The translations under genes were made by a program, and so were the position numbers. This document shows, piece after piece, positions 7,904 to 40,593 of a DNA stretch of 41,679 nucleotides. The notes below the pieces were generated by a model. It was not told where the DNA came from and ran no database searches. It worked only from the letters and a program-made list of their open reading frames with translations. The stretch spans positions 1 to 41,679 of IMG/VR virus record IMGVR_UViG_3300032297_001097; one strand, given 5' to 3'. Source of the DNA: a virus. The stretch's first letter is position 1. Every line of letters begins with the position of its first letter.

Positions 7904-9219
7904 AATTTATTTCTCATAAAATCTTGAACAATTTCTGAAATATAAGCTATTTGTTCAGGAGTAATAACTGGTGAAGTGCCTAAGAAAAAAGTGTTTGTCG
8001 TAACAAAGTTTGCTACTGGAAAATCTTTTAACTTTAAGTCTCCGATAAGATGAGAGTAGGCTGGCTGCATCAAAATATTTCCAGCAAAATAAGGCCTAGT
8101 CTGAATTTTCTTTGATTCTAAAAATTGACAAAATTCACTCCTACTAAATGGAGCGTCTTTCTTGATAGTTATTGGGAATGCAAACCAATTAACATCTGCC
8201 TTCTTTTCTGGTTTTGGTAAATGGAAATATTCTTCATACTCTTCAAAAACTTTAAATAAGAGTTTGTAGTTTCTTTTTCTGAGTTCTGAAATAGTGCTAA
8301 ATTTATCAAGTTGTGCAAGTAACATAGAAGCTTGCATTTCTATTGGCTTTAGATTAAAACCAACTTCTTCATAAACATACTTATGATCAAATACTTCACC
8401 AGGCATACTAGGAAGCCACTCTGAAAATCTAGTTCCACAAGCTCCACATGCTGAGAGGTTTTGTTTTCCATGACAAAAACATCCCCTTCCCCAATCACGG
8501 AAAGATCTAATCACTCGCTCCAGATTTTCATTATTACAAACTACTAATCCGCCTTCTCCGCATGTAATATGATGAGCTGGATAAAAGGAACAAGAAGCCA
8601 TCATTCCAAAGCTTCCTAATGGCTTATCATCATATGTAGAGCCTAAAGCATCACAACAATCTTCTAATAATATAAGCTCATATTCTTTGATTAAAAGCAT
8701 CAAATCATCCATATTAGGAGGATTGCCAAGAACGTGTGCAAATGTAATTATTTTTATTTCAGGATCATTTTCTAAAGCCGCTCGTACACAATCTATATCA
8801 AGATTTAATCCATCTAAAGTAATGTCAACAAAAACTGGCTTAAAATTACATTGAAAAATAGGATTTACAGTAGTTGGAAATCCTGCAATAGGAGTTAATA
8901 CTTTTGTGCCTTCTGGAAAATCTGTAAACCTCTTTGACTTTAGAGCAGACATCATAAGTAAGTTACTACTACTTCCAGAATTAGTGAGTAAACCAAACTT
9001 TTTATCAAACATACTGGCAAGTTTCTTTTCTGCCTTATATGCTTCTGCTCCTAATACAAGCCACCCATCAAGAAGGGTATTAACAGATCGTAAAATTTCA
9101 TTATTGTCAAAGAATGGTCCGGCATATTGAACATAATCTTTTCCAGCTCGCCATTCTTTTTTGGTACTAGAATCAAGAAAATTACTTAAAGTTTGAAATA
9201 GTTCTTCTTTTGATAACAT
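7900..9219 (-). CDS. rfbH: CDP-4-keto-6-deoxyglucose-3-dehydratase-like protein (E1/RfbH family)
   Basis: A 439-residue DegT/DnrJ/EryC1 fold protein with E1 hallmarks. The PLP-anchoring lysine is replaced by histidine in SFYPAHHIT (His217), just before GEGG. The cysteines Cys189, Cys247, Cys249 and Cys258 follow C-x57-C-x1-C-x8-C, almost the known E1 [2Fe-2S] pattern C-x57-C-x1-C-x7-C. E1 removes the C-3 hydroxyl of a 4-keto-6-deoxy sugar using PMP and electrons from a reductase (E3). No E3 gene is seen in this window. It is the first gene of the five-gene operon, lacks a Shine-Dalgarno sequence, and has TATAAT six bases before the ATG. Confidence 0.85.
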   Translation of the reverse strand: MLSKEELFQTLSNFLDSSTKKEWRAGKDYVQYAGPFFDNNEILRSVNTLLDGWLVLGAEAYKAEKKLASMFDKKFGLLTNSGSSSNLLMMSALKSKRFTDFPEGTKVLTPIAGFPTTVNPIFQCNFKPVFVDITLDGLNLDIDCVRAALENDPEIKIITFAHVLGNPPNMDDLMLLIKEYELILLEDCCDALGSTYDDKPLGSFGMMASCSFYPAHHITCGEGGLVVCNNENLERVIRSFRDWGRGCFCHGKQNLSACGACGTRFSEWLPSMPGEVFDHKYVYEEVGFNLKPIEMQASMLLAQLDKFSTISELRKRNYKLLFKVFEEYEEYFHLPKPEKKADVNWFAFPITIKKDAPFSRSEFCQFLESKKIQTRPYFAGNILMQPAYSHLIGDLKLKDFPVANFVTTNTFFLGTSPVITPEQIAYISEIVQDFMRNKL

Positions 9220-9225
9220 AAAAAA

Positions 9226-9231
9226 ATTATA
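9226..9231 (-). promoter_or_regulatory. -10 box of probable leaderless promoter for sugar operon
   Basis: TATAAT on the minus strand, preceded by TGG (extended -10) and followed by exactly six T before the ATG at 9219. A start site about seven bases after the box would fall on the A of the ATG. No Shine-Dalgarno sequence is present and no good -35 is seen. Confidence 0.6.
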
Positions 9232-9243
9232 CCACTAATTATT

Positions 9244-9969
9244 TTATGATATTTCATACAACCAATCAGAAAAATTTTTGTTATTTTTAAAATCAAAAGT
9301 AGAGTGACCCAAATCAAGTAATTCACAATTAATATCAACGTTAAAAACAAACTGAAATGAGCTTTCTGCAAACCATTCTGCAATTGGAACATCGTATTTC
9401 CAATGATCTAAAATCATTTCATAATACTCTTTTGGATTAGAAAGTATAGCTTCTTTTCTCAAAGCATAATGCCCATTTCTATAAAAAGCCCAAGGTTTAT
9501 ATGAGCTAATCTTTCCAAAAGGATCTAATAGCTTCATCCATTCATTCCAATTTACTGTGTTTGTAATAAAAAATTCATGATGACGCTGATTATAATTTGT
9601 TGGGCAATCATATATATTTGCTATAGTTTGTTGAAATGCTGGTTTAGACATATATTTATTATTTGGAATGTCACTATAATAATCTAGCATATTTTGAATG
9701 CCTTGTTCATTATTTTTCCATCCCATTTGTTCTTCAAGTGTTCCGTCCCATGGCCAAGCTTGAATAAAAATAGTAATGTCAGCTAAATTGTCATAATTCC
9801 TATAACAATGATATATTTGAGACGCGCCAAGCATTCCCAAATTAGGCAAATTTATTACATTATGACTAGAATTAATCTTTGGACCTTTATTGTAAATGGT
9901 GACATTTTCAAGATGATCAGCCCAAGAAACATCTTCTTTGTATCTTCCTAATACTATTTCTCTTGTCAT
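9244..9969 (-). CDS. DUF3431-like protein (glycan-related)
   Basis: A 241-residue protein with the pattern of DUF3431. It starts VLGRYKEDVSWADHL, then IYNKG, then LPNLGMLGASQIYHCYRNYDNLADITIFIQAWPWD, and has the late segment AFYRNGHYALRKEAIL. The family is often found near polysaccharide or glycosyltransferase genes and has no proven reaction that I know of. Its ATG overlaps the stop of the methyltransferase gene by four bases. The pair forms a small transcription unit between the capsid genes and the sugar operon, so glycan modification is the likely theme. Confidence 0.6.
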   Translation of the reverse strand: MTREIVLGRYKEDVSWADHLENVTIYNKGPKINSSHNVINLPNLGMLGASQIYHCYRNYDNLADITIFIQAWPWDGTLEEQMGWKNNEQGIQNMLDYYSDIPNNKYMSKPAFQQTIANIYDCPTNYNQRHHEFFITNTVNWNEWMKLLDPFGKISSYKPWAFYRNGHYALRKEAILSNPKEYYEMILDHWKYDVPIAEWFAESSFQFVFNVDINCELLDLGHSTFDFKNNKNFSDWLYEIS

Positions 9970-10661
9970 GTTATTCTCAAGTCATCGTATTCAAAAATAA
10001 GAGGATATTGTGCCTCTTGATGACATCCAACTACTTCTCCAAGATCATAAAATCTATATTGAAAATCGCCTTCCCACATAAATCCAATCTCAGTAAAATG
10101 TCCATCAGGCTTATTGATCTTCCAGCTATTAATATATTCCCAATAATTTGCTTTTTCAAATCCTCTGAAAACATTGTCCTTAATTGAGTAAATCCACTTA
10201 TGATGAAAAAAGCCTCTGTATCCTTGAACCCCATACCAATTTTCAAATCTCAAATATTCAGCATATTTTGATGGGACAGAAATAAATCCTCTCTTGGAAA
10301 TTTTCATCAACATATCACAAACTAATTTAGGATTTGTAATGTCTTCAAGTGTATGTGTGCAAATAGAATAATCAAATTTTCCATTCTCTTCTACATAATC
10401 TAAAACTGACTTCCAGTTATTTTCTTGAGTAATATCAAAATCAAAAAAATGTCTGTCGGGATGAGAAGCTAAAAATTCTTCTTTACTTCCCTCATTTACA
10501 AAAATATCTACAACGTGAGTAGTATATTTGCACCAAGAATTGATTCCTCCACCAACATCAATAACCTTAAGTGATGGATTTTCATTCTTGAGTTTTACAA
10601 TTTCATCGTCTACAAAATGTCTGTGTTCAGTAAATTTTCTTAGAACCTTATTTGTTATCAT
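9966..10661 (-). CDS. Class I SAM-dependent methyltransferase-like protein
   Basis: A 231-residue protein with a Rossmann methyltransferase start: VIDVGGGIN (residues 33-41, motif I), an acidic residue after the second strand (VVDIFV, Asp52), FDYSICTHTLEDI (motif IV region) and a following strand GFISVPS. A long aromatic C-terminal region (FHHKWIYSI, FYDLGEVVG) may bind the acceptor. Methyltransferases of this type in sugar clusters modify sugars or glycan ends, which fits the location. The gene starts without a Shine-Dalgarno sequence, seven bases after a TATAAT box, and follows the capsid-gene terminator. Confidence 0.65.
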   Translation of the reverse strand: MITNKVLRKFTEHRHFVDDEIVKLKNENPSLKVIDVGGGINSWCKYTTHVVDIFVNEGSKEEFLASHPDRHFFDFDITQENNWKSVLDYVEENGKFDYSICTHTLEDITNPKLVCDMLMKISKRGFISVPSKYAEYLRFENWYGVQGYRGFFHHKWIYSIKDNVFRGFEKANYWEYINSWKINKPDGHFTEIGFMWEGDFQYRFYDLGEVVGCHQEAQYPLIFEYDDLRIT

Positions 10662-10668
10662 AAGAAAA

Positions 10669-10674
10669 ATTATA
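10669..10674 (-). promoter_or_regulatory. -10 box of probable leaderless promoter for methyltransferase
   Basis: TATAAT preceded by TTTGCTTG and followed by seven bases (TTTTCTT) and the ATG at 10661. The identical TTTGCTTGTATAA core is found before the gene starting at 31552. It lies just beyond the capsid-gene terminator, so it restarts transcription. Confidence 0.6.
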
Positions 10675-10700
10675 CAAGCAAATCAATTACCTTAAATAAA

Positions 10701-10728
10701 AAAGGAGGAGTATTTCTACTCCTCCTTT
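10701..10728 (-). terminator. Strong intrinsic terminator after major capsid gene
   Basis: A perfect 12-bp stem (AAAGGAGGAGTA at 10701-10712, TACTCCTCCTTT at 10717-10728) with a four-base loop that reads GAAA on the minus strand, a stable GNRA tetraloop. It is followed there by TTTTTTATTT. It lies 18 bases after the capsid stop codon. Confidence 0.92.
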
Positions 10729-10746
10729 CTCTAGACTTGCTAGGAA

Positions 10747-11601
10747 TTACGCAACGGTAATTCTGGAAACTGCATAGTCGTTGATAAGAGCAAAACCGAG
10801 CTCTTCGTAAACAACCCATCCGAGTCTAAGTCTCTTTGGATCGTCTGCAGGAAGAACGGTGATGTCTTGTCTGATTGGCATTGCACCACAGAATTGAGCA
10901 GGAGCAAGAACGTAGACAGAGTTCTTAGGAACCATTGTGCTGACGTGGATGTCTGCTGAATAGATGTGACCGTAAAGACCAGTCATGAGGATGTCTCTTT
11001 GAGTAGCTTCATCAAAGAATTCCTTGCCCCAGTTTCTGATATCCTTGTATCTTTGTGGGTGAAGGACAACCTTAGCGCCGATGAGCTCATGCTCTTCGAT
11101 AAGGGTAAGCGCAAGGTTGATGTTCTCTGGTTGAAGAGTACCGGAAACAGAGATAGCTTGGTCAGTAGGCACACCAGCATTGATGACCTTAAAGACTTCG
11201 GTATCTTCTTGTCTTTGGAGGGAGTCCTTAGCACGGACTTGAGCTCTATCGACAATGTAGAATCTTCTTTGTCTGATCTCATTCAATCTGATTTGTGGAT
11301 GAGCAGCCAACTCGATGGTTGGAACAAGAAGCTCTTCTGCTTCAACTTCAGCTGCAGGAACGGAGCCTCTCTTAGGAATGACGTATGACTTTACAGCAAC
11401 GTCTCTCTCATATCTTGCAAGAGCGCCTTGTGGGAGCTCATCAACCATGAGAAGCTTTCTACCGATAGCTTGGTACATAAGGGAGGTCTTGATTGGCTCA
11501 ACCATTGCTTGAGCTAATGCTGTTCTGCCCTCTGGAGTCTCAAGAGCCATCGCGATGATGGATTCTCTTTGCTCATTTGTGTTTCTTTTAATCATTGACA
11601 T
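10747..11601 (-). CDS. Major capsid protein (HK97-fold)
   Basis: A 284-residue protein in the expected place, after portal, protease and scaffold-like genes. The helical N-terminus (residues 1-60) is followed by PKRGSVPAAEVEAEELLVPT, resembling an N-arm/E-loop region, then the P-domain helix of about 105-150, LIGAKVVLHPQRYKDIRNW (A domain) and YGHIYSADIHVSTMVPKNSVYVLAP near the end, a typical HK97-like C-terminal region. AAGGAG lies 11 bases before the first of two close ATG codons. Codons are visibly richer in G and C than in neighbouring genes, as expected for the most abundant protein. It has its own strong terminator. Family assignment is by position and pattern. Confidence 0.8.
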   Translation of the reverse strand: MSMIKRNTNEQRESIIAMALETPEGRTALAQAMVEPIKTSLMYQAIGRKLLMVDELPQGALARYERDVAVKSYVIPKRGSVPAAEVEAEELLVPTIELAAHPQIRLNEIRQRRFYIVDRAQVRAKDSLQRQEDTEVFKVINAGVPTDQAISVSGTLQPENINLALTLIEEHELIGAKVVLHPQRYKDIRNWGKEFFDEATQRDILMTGLYGHIYSADIHVSTMVPKNSVYVLAPAQFCGAMPIRQDITVLPADDPKRLRLGWVVYEELGFALINDYAVSRITVA

Positions 11602-11636
11602 TAGATTTTTTTCTCCTTAAAAAATTACCTTACAGA

Positions 11637-12290: not shown

Positions 12291-12325
12291 TTTTAGTATT
12301 CTCCTAATTATTTGTTTTGAGGAAA

Positions 12326-13978: not shown

Positions 13979-14046
13979 TTCTTGCTGCTTCCCTTAATAA
14001 AACTTTTTCTTTTATCAAAGCTTAGTTTTAAAACATAGTTATAAAC

Positions 14047-14080
14047 TGTTTTATACATTCTATGTTATTATGTTTTATAC
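14047..14080 (-). promoter_or_regulatory. Two direct copies of GTATAAAACA upstream of scaffold-like gene
   Basis: On the minus strand GTATAAAACA occurs at 14071-14080 and again at 14047-14056, 24 bases apart, 69-102 bases before the scaffold-like ATG. The core TATAAAA resembles the -10 boxes seen before other genes here, and no -35 is obvious. They lie just past the terminator of the protease gene, where a new promoter is expected. Confidence 0.45.
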
Positions 14081-14090
14081 CTTTTTTGAC

Positions 14091-14122: not shown

Positions 14123-14129
14123 TTATACG

Positions 14130-18396: not shown

Positions 18397-20757
18397 CTAC
18401 AAATATTCTTCTTCAGAATTTTGAGATCCTGTTCTTCTCTTAATTACTTGCAATAAGACATTTATACAGTCTTGAGGATGATCATTTAATTCTTTATCAG
18501 TAAATCTGACAATAATCCATCCTTTACTTGCTAATTCAGAATCTCTTCTCTTATCTTTAGCAATTTTATCTGGATTGTTATGCCAAATTTCTCCATCTGC
18601 CTCAACGCCAACCTTTAAGTTTGGAATAGCAGCATCTAACTGGTAATCAAATGTTGGCCCAGCTGAATACTGTGCATATAATGAATAGGGCATATTTAAG
18701 CTCATAAGCATGCCATAAAGTTTTTTCTCTAATGAAGTAAACATTTGAGGTTGTGCTCTATCAAGCTTCTTAGCTAAAACTTGTCTAACACCAGTATCTT
18801 CAGACTGTGCAAGAACAGAAAGTTCATAATTTGCTTCATAGTTCAAAGCTACTGAATTCATGCCACCAGCGATTGGCTCTACCAGATTTCCATACAATCC
18901 ATCATATTTCTCAGGTAATGGCCCTAATGTACCTCTACCAGTGACAGGAGAAATAGACATCAAGAAGCCTTCGTGTGCTGCTGATTTAATATTAGAGCTT
19001 GCATATCGATTGTTAGATCTTGATAATTTGGCTGATACTCTTTCGTTATAAACATCATTAATAATGGTTGAAGCAATCTTATAGAATCTATCTTTCTCAG
19101 CAGCAGTAGGCATCGGTGGAGGAGCAGCTGGTGCTGGAGGAGGACCACCTGCTGCAGGAGCACCTCCAAGTGGAGCTTGTGGCATAGGTGGTTCCATTGG
19201 CATCTGACCAGCGCCAGCCCCAAAACCCTGTCCAGTGACTGGTCCACTTTGCAAATTTAATGAAAAGGCTGGTGTTCCAAAACTTTGATCACTGATAAAG
19301 TTTGCACCTTGCTCAAACCTCAGTCTTTCAATTTCTTGATCTGAGTCTAAACCAAAAGCCTCAATTAATGAAACGTTTGAAATAACACCATTTTGATTTG
19401 CAGTTACAAGCATTTGGAGCTTGCCAGTATCATCTCTTAATTGAAGATCATCAAACTTAATTTTAGGATAGACAAGTTCATCCTGTCCTCTTTCACCTTC
19501 AATTACAAATCCATTCCACTCAGCTACAGGCTTAAATACACATTGCTCAACCCAGTGTGCAACCTCTCTTCTAAAGGTTTCAAGTCTTTGAGCCATAGCA
19601 AGCAAACCAACTTGAGCATTTCCATAAGTTGGCCCTTCGCCATTAAGTAAAGCTTTGTTGAGCATGACACCATCTAAAATTTCTTGCTCAATTAGTTCAA
19701 ATTCTCCGGTTAGTGGATGAATCTTACCAGTAGCTCCATACCATTCCATATCAAAGTTATGGTGGGTAACAAGGGTCAAATTTGGGTCATTAGCAATTGA
19801 TGCTAACTCGTCTTGAACATTGTCAATATCTTCTTGTGATGCTGGTCTTGTATCGCTTCCAATTTTTACAACCTTAATTGGAATAATCAATCTTTCAGCA
19901 ATCATGTACTGAGCTTGACGTAATTTATCTTTATAGGTCAAGATTGGGAATAATGGCCTAATCATAGAAACGCCATAATCTTCCCAAGGGTTTGAGCCAT
20001 GCTTAAAATGATGAATTGAAATAGGACTTAACTTAATTGGATCCCCTTTCATAATCATTTTTTTAACATCATCAGGAATAGAATCATAAATTTCTTTTGG
20101 ATGTCTTTCATTTATGATTCTGACTTCTTCTGCTGATGGTTTATATGCATAGGAGCCAGGTTGGTCAATCATTCCTGGAGTTTTTATAACACTGTCAGGA
20201 TTGAGGATTGAAATAGATTTCCAAGTTGCACCATCATGCTTACAAGGCTCGTTTTTGTTACCGTCCCAGTTTGAGCCATTACAGTGCTCACATTCAATGG
20301 ACAAAAGTACAAATGAATCACCTAATAAGTGATAAGCTTGTGAAATTTCTGGAAGCCATTTTTGGAAGTTTAACTTTTCAACTAATTTTTCAAAATAGTC
20401 TTTTACGTATGAAGATGAGCATTCAAGCTTCCATCCAGAAAAAGGATAGTTTTTATAAAAGTTGATGGCAGCAGCAACTTTTGGCTCATTGTTTTTCCAC
20501 CACGATGCCCAAAGATAAACTTCTCTTCTAGCGTTTGGGATTTGGAAAGATGAAGGGGTTAAGAATGGAGAATAAAAGTTTGGAGCAGTGGTGATAGTAT
20601 TTGTACTAGCTGACCTAGATACAGAAGGGCCAAGTCCTAATCCAATTCTACTACTTGCATATCTTTGTTCAGATGGTGAGCTTGCAGATGATTTCTCACC
20701 AGCAACTTGAGTCGCTGAAGTTCTAATAGCAGCTGCCAAAGATGTTCTATTTGCCAT
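18397..20757 (-). CDS. Portal protein fused to DUF559/Vsr-like nuclease domain
   Basis: A 786-residue protein. Residues 75-500 look like a portal: YLWASWWKNNEPKVAAAINFYKNYPFSGW, long helices (QAQYMIAERLIIPIK), and a Cys156/Cys159/Cys172/His174 insertion. Residues 525-560 are Pro/Ala-rich. From about residue 673 a separate domain follows the DUF559/Vsr-like PD-(D/E)xK pattern: TSLEKKLY, Asp704/Asp708, then VEADGEIWH (Glu719, Asp721, His726), then DKRRDSELASKGWIIVRF. These are the usual core residues, so the nuclease looks intact. Portals are commonly 400-600 residues. The gene has no Shine-Dalgarno sequence and a TATAAT box seven bases before the ATG. Confidence 0.8.
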   Translation of the reverse strand: MANRTSLAAAIRTSATQVAGEKSSASSPSEQRYASSRIGLGLGPSVSRSASTNTITTAPNFYSPFLTPSSFQIPNARREVYLWASWWKNNEPKVAAAINFYKNYPFSGWKLECSSSYVKDYFEKLVEKLNFQKWLPEISQAYHLLGDSFVLLSIECEHCNGSNWDGNKNEPCKHDGATWKSISILNPDSVIKTPGMIDQPGSYAYKPSAEEVRIINERHPKEIYDSIPDDVKKMIMKGDPIKLSPISIHHFKHGSNPWEDYGVSMIRPLFPILTYKDKLRQAQYMIAERLIIPIKVVKIGSDTRPASQEDIDNVQDELASIANDPNLTLVTHHNFDMEWYGATGKIHPLTGEFELIEQEILDGVMLNKALLNGEGPTYGNAQVGLLAMAQRLETFRREVAHWVEQCVFKPVAEWNGFVIEGERGQDELVYPKIKFDDLQLRDDTGKLQMLVTANQNGVISNVSLIEAFGLDSDQEIERLRFEQGANFISDQSFGTPAFSLNLQSGPVTGQGFGAGAGQMPMEPPMPQAPLGGAPAAGGPPPAPAAPPPMPTAAEKDRFYKIASTIINDVYNERVSAKLSRSNNRYASSNIKSAAHEGFLMSISPVTGRGTLGPLPEKYDGLYGNLVEPIAGGMNSVALNYEANYELSVLAQSEDTGVRQVLAKKLDRAQPQMFTSLEKKLYGMLMSLNMPYSLYAQYSAGPTFDYQLDAAIPNLKVGVEADGEIWHNNPDKIAKDKRRDSELASKGWIIVRFTDKELNDHPQDCINVLLQVIKRRTGSQNSEEEYL

Positions 20758-20764: not shown

Positions 20765-20770
20765 ATTATA
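20765..20770 (-). promoter_or_regulatory. -10 box of probable leaderless promoter for portal gene
   Basis: TATAAT preceded by TTGGG and followed by seven bases (TTAAGTT) and the portal ATG at 20757. It overlaps the stop codon region of the gene upstream. Confidence 0.55.
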
Positions 20771-21143
20771 CCCAAGTTTGAGATGAAGGAGCGCTCTTTT
20801 CTGTGAATAAGCCTTTGTTTCTAAGCGCTAAGTATCTTCCTTCACCTTTGAACATGTGAATATCAGAATCAGTTTGATTTAGTGTGTTTCTAATTGGTGT
20901 TTCATTATCAGGAAAATTCATTCTAAGTTGTTCTTCTGTAGTCAAATTTTCTGGGGATAATGAATCTGATTTAGGCTGAATTTCAGAAATTTCATCATCA
21001 ATATTAGTATTAATAATTGATATATTTCCAGGATTTAAAATGCTCATATTTTCTGGAGCTATAACAGAAACAGTTGAGCCGTCATTGCTTTGCTTTTCCT
21101 GTTTAGCAACACCAAAGGCAGCTTTGACGACTCTATACCACAT
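20766..21143 (-). CDS. Hypothetical protein with MWYR N-terminus
   Basis: A 125-residue, mostly polar protein (many Ser, Asn, Glu) lacking predicted domains. It begins MWYRVVKAAFGVAK, a short basic-hydrophobic helix like those starting the small proteins at 40656 and 41118, then becomes low-complexity and probably disordered. It sits one base after the previous gene's stop and eight bases before the portal start, so it belongs to the head operon and is probably a virion or assembly protein. AAGAG precedes the ATG. Function unknown. Confidence 0.5.
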   Translation of the reverse strand: MWYRVVKAAFGVAKQEKQSNDGSTVSVIAPENMSILNPGNISIINTNIDDEISEIQPKSDSLSPENLTTEEQLRMNFPDNETPIRNTLNQTDSDIHMFKGEGRYLALRNKGLFTEKSAPSSQTWV

Positions 21144-30117: not shown

Positions 30118-30878
30118 TATTTATAACAGGTCAGGTAAATCCAATATTTATGAATATACTCTTCATAAGAATTTTGTATTGAATAATCTACTTTCTTAAA
30201 GCCTATGCTAAAAAGATCATTAAATAAGTTATTAGGATCTGTCACCCTAACATCATATTCCCCATGAGAACCAGAAGCATTATAAACATTGTCATAATAA
30301 CCTGCTACTGGGAGCTGACTAGGAAATATTCCAACTTGGCTCTTCATTCTTACAAACCAGTGATTTGGAAATGCTCTTTCTTTCAAGTTCTCTCCAAAGC
30401 CCATTTGAAAAGTGAAAACTCCATCTGTTTTCATTACTCTATAAATTTCTTTAAGTAACTCTAATCTAAAGTTGTGTATTGGAATGTGTTGAAATACTAA
30501 AGTAGATATTACAAAGTCAAAAGATTCATCATTAAACTTCTTGAGATTTCTGCCTGAGGTTTTATGAAAATTATATTTAGAGTTTTGAAAATTTTTGATA
30601 TTTTCATCAATATTTTTTTTACTTAGATCAACACCATGTAGTTCTTTCCAGTTTGCTAGCCCATCAAGATTCTTTAGATTTCTTCCTCTAGATGTGCCAA
30701 AATCAAGGGCAACTTTATCTTCCCATTTTTCAGGTTCAGAAGAAATAGGCTTTAGTAAAAGATCCCAATACAAGGGGTTTAAGTCGTGTCTGTCATAGTC
30801 TGAAGTGCCAAATGATGTTTCTTCATATAGCATTTCTAAATATTGACTTAATTCATCGTTATCAAAGCTAAAAAACAT
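30117..30878 (-). CDS. SAM-dependent methyltransferase embedded between terminase genes
   Basis: A 253-residue class I methyltransferase with ALDFGTSRGRNL (motif I), LHGVDLSKKN (acidic loop II), FDFVISTLVFQHI (motif IV) and IYRVMKTDGVFTF (motif V/VI), as in the type 11 group. Both junctions are TAATG overlaps, with the small-terminase-like gene before and the large terminase after, so expression is tied to packaging. Substrate is unknown: protein, sugar or nucleobase targets all occur in this group. No DNA-methyltransferase motif (DPPY, PC) is present. Confidence 0.75.
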   Translation of the reverse strand: MFFSFDNDELSQYLEMLYEETSFGTSDYDRHDLNPLYWDLLLKPISSEPEKWEDKVALDFGTSRGRNLKNLDGLANWKELHGVDLSKKNIDENIKNFQNSKYNFHKTSGRNLKKFNDESFDFVISTLVFQHIPIHNFRLELLKEIYRVMKTDGVFTFQMGFGENLKERAFPNHWFVRMKSQVGIFPSQLPVAGYYDNVYNASGSHGEYDVRVTDPNNLFNDLFSIGFKKVDYSIQNSYEEYIHKYWIYLTCYK

Positions 30879-31552
30879 TAGTTATCCTGTTGAATTTTTT
30901 GGCGTAAGAATTGGATTTCATCTCTAATTCTTTTTTTATCAGCTTCTGTTTCCATATCATTATGAAGTTTAGAAAGAATTTCAAAAATATTAATAGCATA
31001 AATTCCAGCATTATCTCTTGTTTCCTTAAGATAAAGAATTTTTGAAATTAATTTTTCAACCATAGCAGCACGTCTTAGTTTAAGGTCATTGTTTTTGCTG
31101 CAGTCCATCCCTCTAACATCATCTAATTCTACAAGTAAAGCAGTTAGCGCAAGTTGTTGCTCTCTAAAGATCCAAGGAGTAATTAATTCTTCTCTTTGCT
31201 CATAGTTCTTTAGACCAGACGTTGAGATTTTCTTGAAATCACAATGCTGCTCCATATGAGTGTTAACTTGCATCCAGTTTAGTTTAGCATCAAAATGTTT
31301 AGCAAAAAATGTAATTACTGATTGAACTTTTCTGCCATTGTCTAAAAATACATGCTCAGCTAAATCTCTAAATGGGGATGTGCAAATTGTACATCTAGGT
31401 TCAAGAAATTGAGGATATGAAATATCGCTCATATTATCTTGAGGCAAAGGAATTAGGGGAAGTTCTCCTTCTTTTAAGTGAGCAAACATCCGAGAAGGCT
31501 TTTTTGGATCGTTTACTATGAGAGAATCAACTTTACTTTTGTTATCTTCCAT
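30878..31552 (-). CDS. Putative terminase small subunit with zinc-like site
   Basis: A 224-residue protein located as expected for a small terminase, two genes before the large one. Residues 54-104 contain C-x2-C (CTIC) and a later H-x3-HC group (THMEQHC), around a helix-turn-helix-like DNGRKVQSVITFFAKHFDAKLNWMQVNTHM, consistent with a metal-stabilised DNA-binding domain. The C-terminal half is helical (residues 125-224) with a coiled-coil end. Small subunits recognise the packaging site and stimulate the motor. The name rests on location plus motif pattern. No Shine-Dalgarno sequence; a TATAAC box lies seven bases before the ATG. Confidence 0.5.
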   Translation of the reverse strand: MEDNKSKVDSLIVNDPKKPSRMFAHLKEGELPLIPLPQDNMSDISYPQFLEPRCTICTSPFRDLAEHVFLDNGRKVQSVITFFAKHFDAKLNWMQVNTHMEQHCDFKKISTSGLKNYEQREELITPWIFREQQLALTALLVELDDVRGMDCSKNNDLKLRRAAMVEKLISKILYLKETRDNAGIYAINIFEILSKLHNDMETEADKKRIRDEIQFLRQKIQQDN

Positions 31553-31559: not shown

Positions 31560-31565
31560 GTTATA
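31560..31565 (-). promoter_or_regulatory. -10 box of probable leaderless promoter for packaging genes
   Basis: TATAAC preceded by TTTTGCTTG (same core as at 10669) and followed by seven bases and the ATG at 31552. It starts immediately after the terminator of the preceding gene. Confidence 0.55.
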
Positions 31566-31572: not shown

Positions 31573-31597
31573 AACAAGCCGCAAAATGCGGCTTGTT
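31573..31597 (-). terminator. Intrinsic terminator before packaging operon
   Basis: A perfect 11-bp stem (AACAAGCCGCA at 31573-31583, TGCGGCTTGTT at 31587-31597) with a three-base loop, followed on the minus strand by TTTTG counting the last two stem bases. It lies 20 bases after the stop of the gene at 31618. Confidence 0.85.
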
Positions 31598-32457: not shown

Positions 32458-33021
32458 CTAATCAAATAAGAAGTCATCTCCCAAAATTGATTTTAATTGC
32501 TCAAGTGTTTTTGACAATCTTTTTGAAAAAGCTCCTTGAGTAATTCCAAGCATTTCAGCTGCTTCTGTTTGACTATATTGTTCAAAAAAGTAAAGCTGAA
32601 TTATGTCTGATTCATCTTCATTAAGTAATTTCATAGCGTTCTGCAATGAAATGATTGTGTCTATTTTATTGAAAGGATCATAGGAAATTTCTTCTGAAAA
32701 GTGATTCTGTATCCTATCTTCTTCTTTTATGTATTTTTCAGTGACATGTCTAAATAAGTTTATATCAATTCTGGTAGATATAAAATAGGAAAAATATGTA
32801 AGTTCTGGATCATATTGTTTGACAATTTTTTGAAGAACAAACAGTGATTCTTCAAACATATCCTCTCTATGAACAGATAATCTTGGTTCTTTGATAATAC
32901 ATCTCTTTATGGATGCGTAAAGCAAAGGTTTATAAAATCCAAAAAGTTCAAAGAGTGCATCTGTATCACCTGACTTAGTTTTTATAACTAAGTCATTTAT
33001 TTGTCCATATTTATCATCCAT
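32458..33021 (-). CDS. Sigma-70 family RNA polymerase sigma factor
   Basis: A 187-residue sigma factor. Region 2 spans about residues 18-100 (DALFELFGFYKPLLYASIKRC, EDMFEESLFVLQKIVKQYD, FSYFISTRIDINLFRHV). Region 4 spans about 130-180, with YSQTEAAEMLGITQGAFSKRLSKTLEQL as helix-turn-helix. This is the small ECF-like two-domain layout. It would redirect host RNA polymerase to phage promoters. The last residues, ILGDDFLFD, form an acidic-hydrophobic tail. The gene follows the clamp and delta genes, has no Shine-Dalgarno sequence, and has TATAAA six bases before the ATG, so it could have its own or an autoregulated promoter. Confidence 0.85.
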   Translation of the reverse strand: MDDKYGQINDLVIKTKSGDTDALFELFGFYKPLLYASIKRCIIKEPRLSVHREDMFEESLFVLQKIVKQYDPELTYFSYFISTRIDINLFRHVTEKYIKEEDRIQNHFSEEISYDPFNKIDTIISLQNAMKLLNEDESDIIQLYFFEQYSQTEAAEMLGITQGAFSKRLSKTLEQLKSILGDDFLFD

Positions 33022-33027: not shown

Positions 33028-33033
33028 TTTATA
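33028..33033 (-). promoter_or_regulatory. TATAAA box six bases before sigma factor start
   Basis: TATAAA preceded by ATG and followed by TAAATT and the ATG at 33021. It also reads TATAAATA over eight bases and spans the stop codon of the upstream gene. Same spacing as the other leaderless-type boxes. Confidence 0.45.
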
Positions 33034-34024: not shown

Positions 34025-34025
34025 A

Positions 34026-35147
34026 TTACTCCATAGGAAACATAATATGATTGAAATTCATATCATGTAATACACAAATAGTGTATCCGTTGTAGTCATT
34101 GAAGGCAAGAGTAATTTGCTCAAGATTTACTATTTCAAGAGCCTTAATAAAGTGATTTATTAGATATGAAACATCAATAGAATCAACAGCTTCATCTAAT
34201 AAGATCTTGTCAGCAACAGCACCCTTATCATCTCTTGAACTTGAAATTATTAATTCATTCCCATTTGTTCTTAAGTTGAACGTATGCGAGCTTGTAATAT
34301 TTGATATAAATCTTAAGGACTTTATAACTTGATTTTTATCAATCGTAAAAGAAGTGACATGCTTAGACTCATCAAAGAACTTATTAAATGAATTATATAC
34401 GCTTTGATAAGAATTGTTTTCCAAGCTAGTGACAAAGATATTATTTTGCCACTTAATGATCAATTTATTCTTATAAATGCAATAAGTGTAAGCTTCATCT
34501 TTATTTAAGAAGTTAAGCAGTAATTCAGCTTGATTTTTAGCAATCAAATAAGACTGTTCATTAGAGAATCTAGAGCCAAATATTGAAATCCTATGTTTAT
34601 CTGAGGATTGAGAATTAAACTCTCCATCTTTGAGAAAAAACATAATGGATGAATAAGGATGTTCATCAAAATCAGGTGCGCATGAAAAGGCAGAAAACTT
34701 AATCAGATTAATTAAGTTTTCAACGTCTAGTTGCTTGAATTTTATATCTTCACTCAAGAAAAATAGGCTGTTGAGTATTTCATCAAAGTTATTAGCTTGT
34801 AAAGTACTAAGAGCAACTCTAGTCTTCTTGTTACCAAAAACTAGTTGATTTTCTTCACTTGCAAAAACAAATTGAATTTCATCAGCTGGGAAGTTAGAAA
34901 AAGCATTGTTGAATAAGTTTGATTCAACTCCAAAATTAAAGAACTCATCTTCAAAGTCACACAAATACAACATTGATGAACTTATAGTATTTGAAGAATA
35001 TACATAAATTTTGTTATCAAGGCAATAAAATACTAATGAATCACTTGCAATAGCTTTGTTTTCATTGAGTGTAATTTTATTCTTTGATATCTTGTTAAGT
35101 AATTGTACTTTGGAAAGATGTTCAGTTTTGTTCAGCTTAAATTTCAA
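34026..35147 (-). CDS. dnaN: DNA polymerase sliding clamp (beta subunit, DnaN-like)
   Basis: A 373-residue protein, the usual length of bacterial beta clamps, with three repeating beta-alpha-beta domains visible in the pattern. SSDKHRISIFGSRF (residues about 180-193) resembles the ATDGHRL segment of the second domain, and the C-terminus HIMFPME resembles the VMPMRL end that lines the binding pocket. It encircles DNA and tethers polymerase. The start is TTG at 35147, where TTGA overlaps the stop of purA, with AAGGA nine bases upstream. Clamp, delta and sigma genes follow each other on one transcript. Confidence 0.8.
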   Translation of the reverse strand: MKFKLNKTEHLSKVQLLNKISKNKITLNENKAIASDSLVFYCLDNKIYVYSSNTISSSMLYLCDFEDEFFNFGVESNLFNNAFSNFPADEIQFVFASEENQLVFGNKKTRVALSTLQANNFDEILNSLFFLSEDIKFKQLDVENLINLIKFSAFSCAPDFDEHPYSSIMFFLKDGEFNSQSSDKHRISIFGSRFSNEQSYLIAKNQAELLLNFLNKDEAYTYCIYKNKLIIKWQNNIFVTSLENNSYQSVYNSFNKFFDESKHVTSFTIDKNQVIKSLRFISNITSSHTFNLRTNGNELIISSSRDDKGAVADKILLDEAVDSIDVSYLINHFIKALEIVNLEQITLAFNDYNGYTICVLHDMNFNHIMFPME

Positions 35148-36139
35148 TGCAGTTGTCCTTGGAATTCTACTTCAACACCTGGATTGTATCGTGTAATGTG
35201 ATTGATAATCTTAAGCATGAAAGTCCCTTCATCGGAGCATACATTCAATATGCCATCCTGATAAAAATTCCATCCATCATTGACCTGATCAAGAACATCC
35301 ATTTTGTTAACAATAAGCTTAGTTACACCATTCATTTGGCAAGCCGTTGTTACTTCATCTAAATTCAACCAATCTATTTGTCTTGGTCGCCCTGTAGTGG
35401 CTCCGTATTCTTGGCCAATCTCACGCAACTGTTCAAATCTGTCGTCGTTTTTTTGGTATCCTTTAGCTCCAACATAGGTAGAATAACACTTGATAACCCC
35501 GACAACATCCCGTACTTGCTTATAATTGAAACCATTGTTTAATACTGCTCCTACTCCAGTGTTTGAGGAAGTTACGTAAGGATAATCACCAAAGTCAACA
35601 TCAAGCCAGTATCCTTGAGCACCTTCAGCTAAAAATTTCTTTGGTGATGAGTGAATAAGACTATACATATCCACAAGATAATTCTTCAATTCAGGAATAT
35701 CTTTGGCACGAAGACCTGTGCGACCAACTTTGTCTTTATAACAAGGGCCATTTCCAGTGCGAGTTGTTCCAATAGTTGTATCTTTGGAATCTTCTTCTAA
35801 ATGATCTTTTGTTATGATATGTGCATTTTCAGCTATTTTAAGGATTGATGTGTTAAACCCAAATCCTTCAAGATACTCAAGTTCTTCAAATAACTTTTCC
35901 GTATTGATAACACAACCATTACCAATGACACTAGGAATGCCATGCAAAATACCACAAGGAACCATGTGTGTAACAATTTTCTCTCCATTGAGGTAAATTG
36001 TATGACCAGCATTGCCTCCACCATTAAAGCGGACAACGTAGTCATATTCACCCGATGCAGCCATTTGATTGGCTATTTTCCCCTTACCCTCATCGCCGTA
36101 CTGCATACCGATAACTACATCAACAATTGAAGTTTCCAT
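35144..36139 (-). CDS. purA: Short adenylosuccinate synthetase (PurA/PurZ superfamily)
   Basis: A 331-residue enzyme; ATG at 36139 is chosen over a TTG two codons upstream. The P-loop-like GDEGKGK (residues 15-21), FNGGGNAGHTIY (His46/47 region), TTIGTTRTGNGPCYKDKVGR, FLAEGAQGYWLD and TTGRPRQIDWLNL match adenylosuccinate synthetase, which couples GTP hydrolysis to Asp addition to IMP. Bacterial PurA has about 430 residues; this length is like the short archaeal and phage PurZ forms. The catalytic Asp of GDEGKG is kept, whereas PurZ of phage phiVC8 has Ser there, so the sequence leans to PurA-type activity, but dGMP use cannot be excluded. It overlaps the clamp gene. Confidence 0.85.
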   Translation of the reverse strand: METSIVDVVIGMQYGDEGKGKIANQMAASGEYDYVVRFNGGGNAGHTIYLNGEKIVTHMVPCGILHGIPSVIGNGCVINTEKLFEELEYLEGFGFNTSILKIAENAHIITKDHLEEDSKDTTIGTTRTGNGPCYKDKVGRTGLRAKDIPELKNYLVDMYSLIHSSPKKFLAEGAQGYWLDVDFGDYPYVTSSNTGVGAVLNNGFNYKQVRDVVGVIKCYSTYVGAKGYQKNDDRFEQLREIGQEYGATTGRPRQIDWLNLDEVTTACQMNGVTKLIVNKMDVLDQVNDGWNFYQDGILNVCSDEGTFMLKIINHITRYNPGVEVEFQGQLH

Positions 36140-36145
36140 ATGCAA

Positions 36146-36165
36146 ATCTTACTACATTGTAAGAT
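36146..36165 (-). promoter_or_regulatory. Small hairpin in front of purA
   Basis: A perfect 7-bp repeat ATCTTAC (36146-36152) and GTAAGAT (36159-36165) with a six-base loop, in the 38-base gap before purA and six bases from its ATG. It overlaps the place of a ribosome-binding site, so it might limit translation. Short, could be chance. Confidence 0.35.
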
Positions 36166-36177
36166 CTTTAGCAAGAG

Positions 36178-36780: not shown

Positions 36781-36783
36781 ATA

Positions 36784-37467
36784 TTACTTTTTTGGTAAAT
36801 TATGTGACGCATCCTGTTTCTCGTCAGTCTTAAATTGCGTATAAACTTCTGTAGCCTTTTTACGTATTCTTGTAAGAGCATTATCAACACATTTTGCTGG
36901 GACATTAAGCGTGTTTGATATATCTTTGTATGATGATCTTAAACAATACTCTACAAAAATATCTGCTTCTAAAGGAGTAAGTTTTTCAAGCAGTAAAGAT
37001 GAATTTAGCTCGAGTTCTTCTCTGACAATAATATCTTCAAGCAAATTTACTTCAGGAGACTCATCATAAGGGTTTTTCTTTTCAGGAATATAGTCCCCTA
37101 AAGTATGAAAATTCCCATCATCATTTAAGATAAAAGGAGCATCTAAAGAAATTGAATCATTCAACGCTGAATTTTTCATTCTTTTAGCAGAAGCAATTGC
37201 AGTTGCTAAGTGTCTTTTGCATACTAAGTTTACACAAAAGTTTTTAAAAGTGGTATCTTTAGTACAATCGTACGAGTTTACTGCTTTGTAAACACCTAGC
37301 CTCAATTCTTGCATAACATCTTCTCTGTCGCCACCAACAATAAAAAAGTGTGGAGCAATCTTTTTGAGGTCAGGTTCTACCATTTTTAAAAGCTTCTTAA
37401 ATGAAACTTCATCGCCTTTTTTAGCCTTATTGACTATTCTTACAATTCTTGGATCTTCAGATGCCAT
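36784..37467 (-). CDS. Second sigma-70 family factor (SigH-like)
   Basis: A 227-residue sigma factor; ATG at 37467 is chosen because CAGGAG lies five bases upstream, better than the TTG at 37485. Region 2 is close to Bacillus SigH: RIVNKAKKGDEVSFKKLLKMVEPDLKKIA, FIVGGDREDVMQELRLGVYKAVNSYD, FKNFCVNLVCKRHLATAIASAKRMKN, and SISLD. Region 4 (about 150-195) reads LTPLEADIFVEYCLRSSYKDISNTLNVPAKCVDNALTRIRKKA, with helix-turn-helix. It would give the phage a second promoter specificity, separate from the factor at 32458. Next to dnaX on one transcript. Confidence 0.85.
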   Translation of the reverse strand: MASEDPRIVRIVNKAKKGDEVSFKKLLKMVEPDLKKIAPHFFIVGGDREDVMQELRLGVYKAVNSYDCTKDTTFKNFCVNLVCKRHLATAIASAKRMKNSALNDSISLDAPFILNDDGNFHTLGDYIPEKKNPYDESPEVNLLEDIIVREELELNSSLLLEKLTPLEADIFVEYCLRSSYKDISNTLNVPAKCVDNALTRIRKKATEVYTQFKTDEKQDASHNLPKK

Positions 37468-37504
37468 CAAATCTCCTGAGGGCAAATATCTATTTTAATC
37501 CTTT

Positions 37505-38572
37505 TTACGCTTCTTTTGAATTAGCGTACTTTTCAATAACTTTGAGAACCCCGGTAATTGCCAAGATATCCTCAGAAACAGTTTGCCTTGTGTTATTAGA
37601 AATGTTATACAAATCTTCAGCTAGCATTAATAAATGCAAAGTTTTTACAGATTTTGCTATATTTTCTATTTCAGGATCTCTTTCAACCTTTTTTGTTCTT
37701 AAGACTACATATTCAAATGCTTTTAAGAAAGTACGAGATGTATCAACAAGAAGTCCAGTCAAGCTTCTACCTTCAGATTGAGACGCTTGAATTATCCTCA
37801 TAGAATCTGCATAATTTAAATTAATAATAGAACTAGCAAGATTGAGAGAAACATGCTTTGGAGATTTACCTAAAATTTCTCTGACATTTTCTTCAGATAT
37901 TTCAGCCACAGTAACTTGTTCTAAGATTGATAAAGCATTTCTAGCGCTTCCATCAGATTCTTTGACAATTAGATTTAATGCATCTATATCGTATTCAAGC
38001 TCTTCTTTCTGACAAATATCTTCTAATAACTCAAGGCAGTTTGAGTCAGAAAGCTTCTTAAGATTAAGAGTTTGACATCTAGTATGAATAGCTCTTAAAA
38101 TCTTGTGTGGATCTGTAGTGCAAAAAAAGAACTTTACAAACTGAGGAGGTTCTTCAGTAAGTTTGATAAGTGAAGTTTGAGCTTGATTTGTAAGCATTTG
38201 AGCTTCATCAAGAATAAATATCTTGTATTTACCAGATACAGGAGAGAGTCTTGAGAATTGGATTACATTCTCTCTAATATGATCAACACCATTATTGACA
38301 GCGCAATTAATCTCATAAATATCAGGATGAGAATCATTAATTACCATCTGCTTTGTATTATCATCTGAATCATTTGCAGATAGTAACTTCATAGCAGCAA
38401 TACGAGCTAATGTAGTCTTTCCTGTACCTGGAGGGCCTGAAAGGATGTATGCATGAGTAGTTTTATTATTCCTAATTTGTAAATCAAGAATAGACGCAGC
38501 AATACATCCCTTCAAATCATCAAATTCTGTAGGTCGATATTTATTGTAAAAACTTTGACTAATCATCATCAT
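37505..38572 (-). CDS. dnaX: Clamp loader ATPase (DNA polymerase III gamma/tau-like, DnaX)
   Basis: A 355-residue AAA+ clamp loader. NKYRPTEFDDLKG is the typical DnaX start, Walker A GPPGTGKT (residues 46-53), Walker B LDEAQ (121-125), a sensor/arginine-finger region IHTRCQ (162-167), and a helical collar to residue 350. The Cys4 zinc module usual after Walker A in bacterial DnaX is missing. Length fits gamma rather than tau, so there is no polymerase-binding tail. Three ATG in a row begin the gene, overlapping the stop of the gene before by 14 bases. With beta and delta homologues nearby it forms a phage clamp-loading set; no delta-prime is seen. Confidence 0.85.
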   Translation of the reverse strand: MMMISQSFYNKYRPTEFDDLKGCIAASILDLQIRNNKTTHAYILSGPPGTGKTTLARIAAMKLLSANDSDDNTKQMVINDSHPDIYEINCAVNNGVDHIRENVIQFSRLSPVSGKYKIFILDEAQMLTNQAQTSLIKLTEEPPQFVKFFFCTTDPHKILRAIHTRCQTLNLKKLSDSNCLELLEDICQKEELEYDIDALNLIVKESDGSARNALSILEQVTVAEISEENVREILGKSPKHVSLNLASSIINLNYADSMRIIQASQSEGRSLTGLLVDTSRTFLKAFEYVVLRTKKVERDPEIENIAKSVKTLHLLMLAEDLYNISNNTRQTVSEDILAITGVLKVIEKYANSKEA

Positions 38573-39035
38573 CCATTGGCACTATAAGAGGAATATCATT
38601 ATCAAGAAGTGACGGCAAATTATCTTTATCCATCCAATATGGGCCAAACCCACTTCTGACAAAATATTCTACTATAAAGCCATAATCCTGTACATCGTAG
38701 TTTCTAATCTTACCATCTAATGCTGGGCTAATCGAATAAAGAGACTTGAATATCAACCATTCCTTTTTTGTTTTTTCTGTCTGCTCCCAAATTTCAGACC
38801 AAACAGCAAAACAATAAATTTTACTATTACCAGAGGAGCGCAATATGTCTCTCGCCCATGACTGAGTAAGCCCCGACATGATACATGCCGGGGCGTTCTT
38901 GCTTTTATATCCATCCATTTCAACAAAATGGACTAAGCTCAAGTCAACGTATCCAATAAACATATAGTATTTTTCAATCAACTTTTCAGCTATATTGAAA
39001 CATTCTTGAGATTCTATAAAGTCTGGCTCACTCAT
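38559..39035 (-). CDS. Degenerate phage metallopeptidase-like protein
   Basis: A 158-residue protein that follows the layout of the putative phage metallopeptidase family: N-terminal helix AEKLIEKYYMFI, a strand with Val-His-Phe, a conserved IYCFAVWSEIWEQ segment, then TEKTKKEWLIF, and RNYDVQDYGFIVEYFVRSGFGPYW. At the place where the family has the zinc motif HExxH this protein reads FKSLYS, and the later His before Asp-Val is Tyr. Zinc ligands are therefore missing, and it is probably not a protease. Family assignment is from my pattern memory. Overlaps its neighbours (ATGA upstream). Alternative: unknown replication accessory. Confidence 0.5.
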   Translation of the reverse strand: MSEPDFIESQECFNIAEKLIEKYYMFIGYVDLSLVHFVEMDGYKSKNAPACIMSGLTQSWARDILRSSGNSKIYCFAVWSEIWEQTEKTKKEWLIFKSLYSISPALDGKIRNYDVQDYGFIVEYFVRSGFGPYWMDKDNLPSLLDNDIPLIVPMDDDD

Positions 39036-39364
39036 AATGACAACTGTGTAACTGCTACAACTTGATTGCTCTGGTCACGAATTGCTGTTGGGCCTGTATC
39101 TACGCAAAAAACATCTTCTCTATCGAATGGCACAAAATCCATTGCAATTCTGTTCACAATATAGTAGACACCATCTTCAGGATCAGGAAGATTTACAATT
39201 TTTTCAAAGTGAGTTTCAGCAATAGGAATTCCAGCCAAGTAAGCAACAATTCTTTGCTTTGTCTCTACACGACAAGGGTTTTCACATCCTGGTAAAGTTG
39301 CGTGTCCTGAAATTGTAATATCGTGTCCAATTAGATTTACAAACTTTTTAAATTCTGGATACAT
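39032..39364 (-). CDS. Small conserved phage protein of unknown function (NLxxHxI type)
   Basis: A 110-residue protein with the order NLIGHDITI (residues 10-18), CRVETKQ, IVNLPDPEDGVYYIVNRIAMDFVPFDREDVFCVDTGPTAIRDQSNQVVAVTQL. A short protein family in phages and some bacteria shows NLTPHxI, then LPxPxDGxxYIVS, then R-x-D-L-x-x-P, which agrees well; no function is known to me. Three cysteines sit at the front half. It is in a tight operon (one to four base overlaps) between the HAD phosphatase and the metallopeptidase-like gene. Confidence 0.55.
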   Translation of the reverse strand: MYPEFKKFVNLIGHDITISGHATLPGCENPCRVETKQRIVAYLAGIPIAETHFEKIVNLPDPEDGVYYIVNRIAMDFVPFDREDVFCVDTGPTAIRDQSNQVVAVTQLSL

Positions 39365-39741
39365 TATAAATTTAACCCTGCTATGCCTTCATTACGTTTT
39401 GGCTGATAAACAAAAGCTGATATGTCTCCATTTGCTCTCAAGTCATTAACAAGAACTCTAGAGCCACCACCAATACCCATAACCAATTGATCATAAACAA
39501 TACCAGCGTAAGAAAGCTGCTTGACTGTTACATCACGCAAACTTTCTTTACGTCCAGTTGTAAGAATGATCTTAAATCCTTTGCTATCCCATTCACGAAT
39601 TTTGTCAACAGAACCGTGAATGATTTTTGGTTGATATCCAGGCTTAGCAATTTCAGTTGGATCGCCTTGTTCCCAAAGAGTTCCATCTAAATCACAAAAA
39701 ATAGTGTAATTTTTTGTGGCTTGATCAATGTTGTGTTCCAT
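39364..39741 (-). CDS. HAD-superfamily hydrolase
   Basis: A 125-residue minimal HAD phosphatase. Motif I DLDGTL (Asp17, Asp19), motif II LTTGR (residues 60-64), and motif IV VLVNDLR (Asp100) are clear; the motif III lysine is not obvious. No cap domain. Similar small proteins hydrolyse phosphate esters such as sugar or nucleotide phosphates; substrate unknown. It overlaps dUTPase and the small conserved gene by one base each, so a role in nucleotide pools is possible. Confidence 0.75.
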   Translation of the reverse strand: MEHNIDQATKNYTIFCDLDGTLWEQGDPTEIAKPGYQPKIIHGSVDKIREWDSKGFKIILTTGRKESLRDVTVKQLSYAGIVYDQLVMGIGGGSRVLVNDLRANGDISAFVYQPKRNEGIAGLNL

Positions 39742-40262
39742 TACTTACCTGTACTACCTAATCCACCCTTACGAGATGTTTTATCAGTTGCACCAAATTC
39801 TTTTACTTCAACCAATTCATGATTTGCTAACTTTGCTACAACCATTTGAGCAATCCGATCACCATGCTTGATAGAAAATGGAATCTTGTTATGATTGATA
39901 AGAATGACCTTAAGTTCAAAGTCTTCTCCATCGCCACAATAATCAGAGTCAATAGTACCAGGAGTATTAAGTACAGTAACTCCAAACTTTGCAGCTAGTC
40001 CAGATCGAGGACGGATTTGAATTTCATATCCGTTAGGAATATTGACATTCAAACCTGTAGGAACAATCATAGTTGAATGTGGTGAAATAAGAGTTTGCTC
40101 ATCATAAGACTCTTTTAACCATGCACAAAGATCATATCCAGCAGCACTTTCCGTTGCTTTCTTAGGAATTACAGCATCTTCACGAAATGCTTTTATCTCA
40201 ACTGTTGCTTTATAACCATTAGGACCTGATATTGTAACCTGTCCACTTCCTGATGCTGCCAT
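39741..40262 (-). CDS. dut: dUTPase (dUTP diphosphatase)
   Basis: A 173-residue trimeric-type dUTPase with all five motifs: AAGYDL (motif 1), RPRSGLA (motif 2), GTIDSDYCG (motif 3, with the catalytic Asp in DSD), GDRIAQMVV (motif 4) and RKGGLGSTGK (motif 5, Arg/Gly-rich end). Converts dUTP to dUMP and diphosphate, keeping uracil out of DNA and supplying dTMP synthesis. About 25 extra N-terminal residues. AGGAAGG precedes the ATG. It is second in the minus-strand operon, after the small gene at 40264. Confidence 0.95.
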   Translation of the reverse strand: MAASGSGQVTISGPNGYKATVEIKAFREDAVIPKKATESAAGYDLCAWLKESYDEQTLISPHSTMIVPTGLNVNIPNGYEIQIRPRSGLAAKFGVTVLNTPGTIDSDYCGDGEDFELKVILINHNKIPFSIKHGDRIAQMVVAKLANHELVEVKEFGATDKTSRKGGLGSTGK

Positions 40263-40263
40263 A

Positions 40264-40581
40264 TTAAATACCTTCCTCGTTCTTAATCATTTCTACTGTA
40301 ATTTCTTGATCATCAGGGTTAAAAATAAGAGATAATGGATACTCTCGATTCTTAAGTTCAATAGAGAAATTAATCAATTCTCTACCTTCCAAATATCTAT
40401 TCATTTTTGTAATTTCCTTAATATCATCAAGCGAAAGTACAGCAGTATAAATTCTCTCAGTTTTTACGTCTTTTAATTGAAGCCAAATGTATTGAACAAT
40501 TGTAGGCTCATCTTCACTGCCTTCATCTTCTTTCAATACAGCATCTAAAATTTTCACTTCTCTGATAGTAGGTTTTCCCAT
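40264..40581 (-). CDS. Hypothetical protein, first gene of the nucleotide/replication operon
   Basis: A 105-residue, acidic protein with a predicted alternating strand pattern (YIWLQLKDVKTERIYTAVLSLDDI, FSIELKNREYPLSLIF, EITVEMI) and no known motif. It is the first minus-strand gene in front of dut, and its ATG follows a TATAAT box by six bases with no ribosome-binding site. Function unknown. Confidence 0.5.
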   Translation of the reverse strand: MGKPTIREVKILDAVLKEDEGSEDEPTIVQYIWLQLKDVKTERIYTAVLSLDDIKEITKMNRYLEGRELINFSIELKNREYPLSLIFNPDDQEITVEMIKNEEGI

Positions 40582-40587
40582 AAAATG

Positions 40588-40593
40588 ATTATA
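40588..40593 (-). promoter_or_regulatory. -10 box of probable leaderless promoter in divergent gap
   Basis: TATAAT followed by CATTTT and the ATG at 40581, in the 74-base gap between divergent genes. No -35 consensus. The plus-strand gene at 40656 needs a promoter in the same gap; none is clear. Confidence 0.55.

Follow-up and report, generated by a model that had tools for sequence, protein, structure and literature searches.

Gene content of the window and its start-proximal boxes

We analysed a 41.7-kb virus record (IMG/VR record IMGVR_UViG_3300032297_001097; hereafter the window, i.e. the whole stretch of 41,679 nucleotides), focusing on TATAAT-like hexamers (hereafter boxes) that lie just upstream of several of its start codons. 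The window carries the structural block of a tailed phage, i.e. the major capsid protein (phrog_2522), protease, portal and terminase, together with replication genes, two sigma factors and a PurZ-like gene. The capsid protein has 126 relatives in IMG/VR, among them contigs of 300-479 kb, and its nearest isolate is Bacillus phage G (48% identity). The window is therefore a genome fragment of a phage-G-related jumbo phage.

A first-pass annotation of the window had listed six minus-strand starts with TATAA(T/C/A) 6-7 bases before the ATG, and all six occur at the places given. Three boxes are separated from the ATG by 6 nt: TATAAT at 9226-9231, before ATG 9219 of a DegT/DnrJ aminotransferase gene (7900-9219); TATAAA at 33028-33033, before ATG 33021 of the first sigma-factor gene (32458-33021, minus strand; Sigma70_r4, E = 9.9e-12); and TATAAT at 40588-40593, before ATG 40581 of a gene for 105 amino acids (aa; 40264-40581), which has no assigned function and heads a run of DNA-metabolism genes. 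The other three have a gap of 7 nt: TATAAT at 10669-10674, before ATG 10661 of a methyltransferase-like gene (9966-10661); TATAAT at 20765-20770, before ATG 20757 of the portal gene (18397-20757); and TATAAC at 31560-31565, before ATG 31552 of a gene (30878-31552) that has no family match and whose position suggests a terminase small subunit. The boxes at 10661 and 31552 share TTTGCTTGTATAA, as had been noticed. In all six the first T of the box is at -12 or -13; four match TANNNT exactly, while TATAAC and TATAAA deviate at the last base. Terminator-like hairpins on the same strand lie upstream of the 10661 box (GAGGAGTAGAAATACTCCTC + CTTTTTTA, 10705-10724) and before the 31552 box (AACAAGCCGC-ATTTT-GCGGCTTGTT, 31573-31597), the latter ending 20 nt before the ATG in a hairpin-box-ATG arrangement that is also present in the L192 orthologue.

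The box starts lack a Shine-Dalgarno (SD) sequence, as the annotation had stated, with a complementarity of only 0-3 nt. Its further statement that most other genes have clear AGGAG sites holds for about half of them: at least 4 matching nt are found in 19 of the 37 other starts, and at least 5 in 9 of the 37.

The pattern TATAA[TCA] at a gap of 6-7 nt precedes 6 of 43 starts in the window (four being TATAAT), whereas 2,000 dinucleotide-preserving shuffles average 0.38 and never exceed 4. All other gaps from 0 to 33 nt together yield two matches across the 43 starts, and internal in-frame ATGs carry the pattern at gap 6-7 in only 2 of 260 cases. Two weaker sites resemble the six. A probable box, TATATT at 2023-2028 on the plus strand, lies 6 nt before ATG 2035 and has a matrix score of 4.6, just under that of the weakest of the six. 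A possible one, TAAGAT at 36146-36151 on the minus strand (score 2.5), lies 6 nt before an alternative ATG (36139) of the PurZ-like gene, which has TTG 36145 as its listed start and two orthologues at 81-84% identity with a clear box.

A fixed-distance peak across relatives

Seven uncultured relatives were compared over all or most of their length, an eighth (G010) over about half and phage G over 400 kb; the contigs are fragments, and genes were called by a simple longest-ORF (open reading frame) procedure. Scored genome-wide against controls, most relatives have a strong excess of boxes at a fixed distance from the start, and those with a TATAAT-ATG peak measure 178-441 kb. In G001, TATAAT precedes candidate ATGs of 20 genes at gap 6 and of 4 at gap 7, against a background of 1.3 per position. 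G002 has 9 at gap 6 and 5 at gap 7, G010 has 10 at gap 6, and G014, with a GC content of 40%, has 13 at gap 6 (background 0.22). G005 has 32 at gap 5 and about 40 at gap 6 (background 2.1), and G011 has 10 at gap 6 and, as a class apart, 30 at gap 4. In an unbiased scan of all hexamers at all distances, the top position-specific signal of G001 and of G014 was TATAAT at gap 6; for phage G it was AAGGAGG. No peak precedes GTG or TTG starts, so the box is specific to ATG. Judged by sequence, each positive genome holds 10-70 box genes of at least 100 aa.

No such peak is present in G003, G004 and phage G. In phage G, TATAAT is spread over 15-30 nt before starts, as leadered promoters would give, alongside a strong AAGGAGG. 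Lacking the peak, phage G can thus serve only as a negative control and not as a laboratory model.

Conservation and exchange of the boxes in orthologues

We compared upstream regions of orthologues, counting each distinct sequence once; relatives inside groups are not independent. The box is kept in 16/16 regions of the DegT aminotransferase gene, in 7/7 of the methyltransferase gene, in 8/10 of gene 30878-31552 and in 6/7 of gene 40264-40581, in the last case down to 30% protein identity and including a 54%-GC relative (L295). It occurs in 23 of 33 portal orthologues and in 5 of 11 orthologues of the sigma-factor gene at 33021. The major capsid gene, by comparison, has a box in 0/76 orthologues and an SD sequence in 72/76. 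Among the 16 DegT orthologues, five of the six box columns are invariant, while the outer 12 of the 14 upstream columns average 38% pairwise identity.

Distant portal orthologues carry AAAGGAG or TTAGGAG and a TTG start in place of the box, and the two modes of initiation therefore exchange. At two portal loci TATAAT lies at a greater distance upstream and GGGAG comes after it. In many portal orthologues (L084-L093 region), an inverted repeat, GTTCTATTTTTATAGAAC, directly precedes the GGTATAAT box.

Start-site base, -35 region and compact contexts

Bacterial transcription generally starts with a pyrimidine at -1 and a purine at +1. T or C stands directly before the ATG at 90% of the box sites with gap 6 and at 94% of those with gap 5, and the rule therefore coincides with the ATG; at SD genes, for comparison, a pyrimidine precedes the start in 23/46, 14/40 and 16/49 cases. 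The annotation had proposed a sigma factor reading mostly the -10, and this agrees with the relatives: no column is conspicuous in the -35 region, and a search for a strong general -35 across 167 box sites was negative. Matches to at least 5/6 of TTGACA at a spacing of 16-18 occur in 15/167 box sites versus 75/2601 other TATAAT hexamers. G is found at -13 in 54% of box sites versus 13%, and TGn directly before TATAAT in 39/167 (23%) versus a background of 8%, i.e. enriched but not general, with G010 reaching 69%.

Some contexts are very compact. At L138, L251 and L273 a hairpin terminator, the box and the ATG are packed into about 21 nt (e.g. TGGGCGGTTTACCGCCCA-TTTTTCTTTTATAATTACTTT-ATG at L251). 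Elsewhere, divergent genes have ATGs only 26-37 bp apart with a box in each direction, as in cat-AACTCTATTATACTCTATAATAGACT-atg at L181 of G005; such opposed-box pairs lie at L175:15882/15909, L181:13186/13213, L248:15270/15298 and L150:9507/9545. These intervals leave no room for leaders and appear to be very compact bidirectional leaderless promoters. Divergent heading is found in 47/129 box genes versus 58/287 SD genes.

The housekeeping -10 hexamer, its ATG-specificity, the pyrimidine before the ATG and the terminator and divergent contexts together support the promoter reading made in the first pass, which fits the sequences better than a ribosome-binding function.

Probable leaderless transcription and its alternatives

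The boxes are, with high probability, -10 promoter elements adjacent to the start codon that make leaderless mRNAs. The -10 element would position the transcription start at the A of the ATG or within one base of it, and mRNAs of the box genes would very probably begin at the start codon without a ribosome-binding leader. Transcription starting there would thus give leaderless expression, in which 70S ribosomes would load via the 5'-terminal AUG without an SD site. A perfect TATAAT closely preceded by G, often GG or TG, would partly compensate for the absent -35. Other genes of these phages have ordinary SD starts.

Chance matches in an AT-rich genome (34% GC) would be the simplest alternative, and TATAAT is common, with 40 copies in the window. 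However, the shuffles and the conservation in orthologues rule this out, and the gap-6 count of the 40%-GC relative far above its background also leaves it a negligible probability. The box could also be a translation signal in a leadered mRNA, i.e. an A/U-rich ribosome-binding element that replaces the SD sequence without being a promoter. It does swap with SD sequences in portal orthologues and adjoins the start codon, and Bacteroidota-type hosts without SD sites tune initiation through other bases (PMC6847099). Yet the box is the exact -10 hexamer, lies between terminators and ATGs and stands back-to-back in 26-bp divergent intervals; the ATG obeys the pyrimidine-then-purine rule, a -35 is retained at the proper spacing in a few sites, and phage G has the same hexamer at a leadered distance from its starts. 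We therefore regard a purely translational role as very unlikely. A third reading accepts the promoters but places the start site before the ATG, giving an mRNA with a very short leader of 1-5 nt. The gap-7 sites would suit it, and bacterial start-site choice shifts by a base or two, but the pyrimidine/A step falls on the ATG at gaps 5 and 6; such leaders, which we think improbable, would in any case be functionally near-equivalent to none. An S1-domain protein as the reason for the missing SD sites was rejected, since a search of nine phages of this group found no S1-domain gene.

Several observations weigh against leaderless transcription from the boxes. The pyrimidine rule is followed at only 59% of gap-7 boxes, and a 1-nt leader is thus possible there. 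Contrary to expectation, terminators are not enriched upstream of box genes compared with SD genes (7/173 versus 9/291); the earlier description of boxes directly after terminators is correct at 10661 and 31552 in the window and in several relatives. Box mRNAs also show no reduction of structure over their first 45 nt relative to SD genes. Finally, two relatives (G003 and G004) lack the peak, G003 despite a 96%-identical capsid protein, and the peak is therefore no family-wide necessity.

Which sigma factor would read the boxes

If the boxes are leaderless promoters, their reader would most simply be the host housekeeping sigma, and otherwise the phage sigmas. Of the two sigma factors encoded in the window, the first is itself behind a box; the second lies at 36784-37485 on the minus strand (Sigma70_r2, E = 1.5e-6; phrog_1740). 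Sigma-factor genes were found in every relative tested, at least two per large contig, and one profile detected no multisubunit RNA polymerase in the relatives. Several relatives also have genome-specific two-part promoters locked to the ATG that do not resemble housekeeping promoters, all of which could suit a phage-timed leaderless programme read by phage-encoded sigmas. However, in the window's clade the box is the unmodified housekeeping -10 consensus, a -35 is weakly preferred at the spacing usual for housekeeping promoters, and this plain TATAAT argues for the host sigma. G003 has two sigma genes, one orthologous to the window's first, yet no box peak. Box genes also cover structural, DNA, chaperone and sugar functions; among those of G001 and G005 are genes for sugar enzymes, DnaJ, clamp loader, kinase and helicase and topoisomerase-like genes, a variety that ties the box to no single timing class. 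We thus consider it unlikely that phage sigmas, rather than the host sigma, read the boxes.

The two-part classes differ between genomes. G004 (L321-L323) has AATCCCC...ATCGGATATATA and AAAAATCCCC...GATCGGATATATAANNY-ATG, with AAAAATCCCC...GATCGGATATATAA before 13-15 genes. G005 (L178-L186) has AATCCCCAA...AGGTATACT-N6-ATG, with GGTATACT in 42 genes. In G011 (L234-L237; G011:C1 1-80000), TTTTCCAGGTTTAACA-N9-TATAAT-N4-ATG precedes about 35 genes in a row, which are mostly small, lie on one strand and in many cases follow a terminator-like GGG..CCCG-TTTTTT; they appear to be single-gene transcription units with a phage-specific promoter. These genome-specific classes could be read by phage sigmas. 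A broader and tentative proposal, which we hold somewhat doubtful, is a start-codon-locked programme in which several genome-specific promoter classes, read by the phages' own and host sigmas, keep the -10 fixed 4-7 nt before the ATG and express large arrays of small genes as single-gene leaderless messages. If true, this would help explain the lack of SD sites in many huge phages.

Host and other features of the window

A single genome scan was made for host assignment; it yielded one informative contig (L292) and did not identify the host of the window phage. This contig, a 1.36-Mb sequence of an Armatimonadetes metagenome-assembled genome (JAFDWS010000002.1), contains a 54%-GC relative. In pieces sampled between 10 and 520 kb (L292 / L294-L305) it is phage-like, with 51-54% GC, and by 595 kb it is 61% GC DNA; the phage-like stretch is either a giant prophage or a chimeric assembly. 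In Armatimonadetes, TATAATN6-7ATG is enriched in most genomes (116 versus 8 in G031, 33 versus 5 in G028), and C or T precedes the ATG in 26 of the 27 gap-6 matches listed for G031. Bacteria with the same layout therefore exist in a plausible host group.

Other features of the window are as follows. The PurZ-like gene (35144-36145; phrog_1211, E = 3.6e-69) makes it possible that the phage has 2-aminoadenine DNA, in which case melting of the TATAAT box would change. The portal protein has an MTES_1575/DUF559 nuclease-like domain fused at its C-terminus (residues about 673-772). Positions 2602-10661 hold a phage-borne cluster for sugar or surface-polysaccharide synthesis, with aminotransferase, epimerase-like and methyltransferase genes. 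Three otherwise unlike small proteins (20766-21143, 40656-41117 and 41118-41477) begin with MWYR or MWYK, perhaps a common N-terminal targeting signal.

Comparison with known systems

The layout is known from some bacteria and is hardly described in phages. The literature covered, largely outside subscription papers, contains no report of it in phage-G-like or other jumbo phages, and we found no mention of leaderless starts in PMC7162821 and two jumbo-phage reviews. In huge phages with S1-like genes, recognisable SD sites are rare and S1 has been proposed as an initiation aid (PMC7162821). A promoter set against the start codon offers a simple alternative, with a message that would need no leader. 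With the box as a sequence rule, start-codon calls in these genomes can be corrected; the box also hints at hosts from leaderless-tolerant phyla and yields natural divergent promoters of 26 bp. The choice between leaderless and SD initiation is testable inside one phage family, as modes switch among orthologues, for instance those of the portal gene.

Phage G, the closest isolated relative by capsid, has conventional leadered starts with AAGGAGG. The T4 late promoters (TATAAATA, gp55), which a phage sigma reads, consist of a -10 alone and serve leadered genes; here, by contrast, the hexamers are TATAAT, TATAAC or TATAAA, and the ATG 6-7 nt on has no SD sequence and would lie at +1, leaving no leader. 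Thermus phage phiYS40 has leaderless middle and late mRNAs, accompanied by a rise of IF2 and a fall of IF3 (reviewed in PMC3594737). It resembles the phages analysed here in that many phage mRNAs would lack a leader, known by experiment for phiYS40 and predicted from sequence here, and its host phylum is rich in leaderless genes. Thermus phage P23-45 uses extended -10 middle and late promoters with gp39 (PMC7403470); its genes likewise depend on -10-type promoters without a -35, but TGn is present in only 23% of our sites.

The layout corresponds to that of bacterial TA-led leaderless genes (Zheng et al. 2011, PMC3160421) and of the '-10 region adjacent to ORF' genes in Deinococcus-Thermus (Zhong et al. 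2025, PMC12340547), for which it was demonstrated experimentally in Deinococcus. Shared features are TANNNT or TATAAT about 12 bp upstream of the start, no SD sequence, an optional -35, mixing with SD genes in each genome and orthologues that switch modes. Those genes were described in cellular genomes (no word beginning with 'phage' occurs in PMC12340547, and one, for lambda, in PMC3160421), whereas the boxes here belong to jumbo phages, combine a full TATAAT with G at -13 and are accompanied by extra genome-specific promoter classes.

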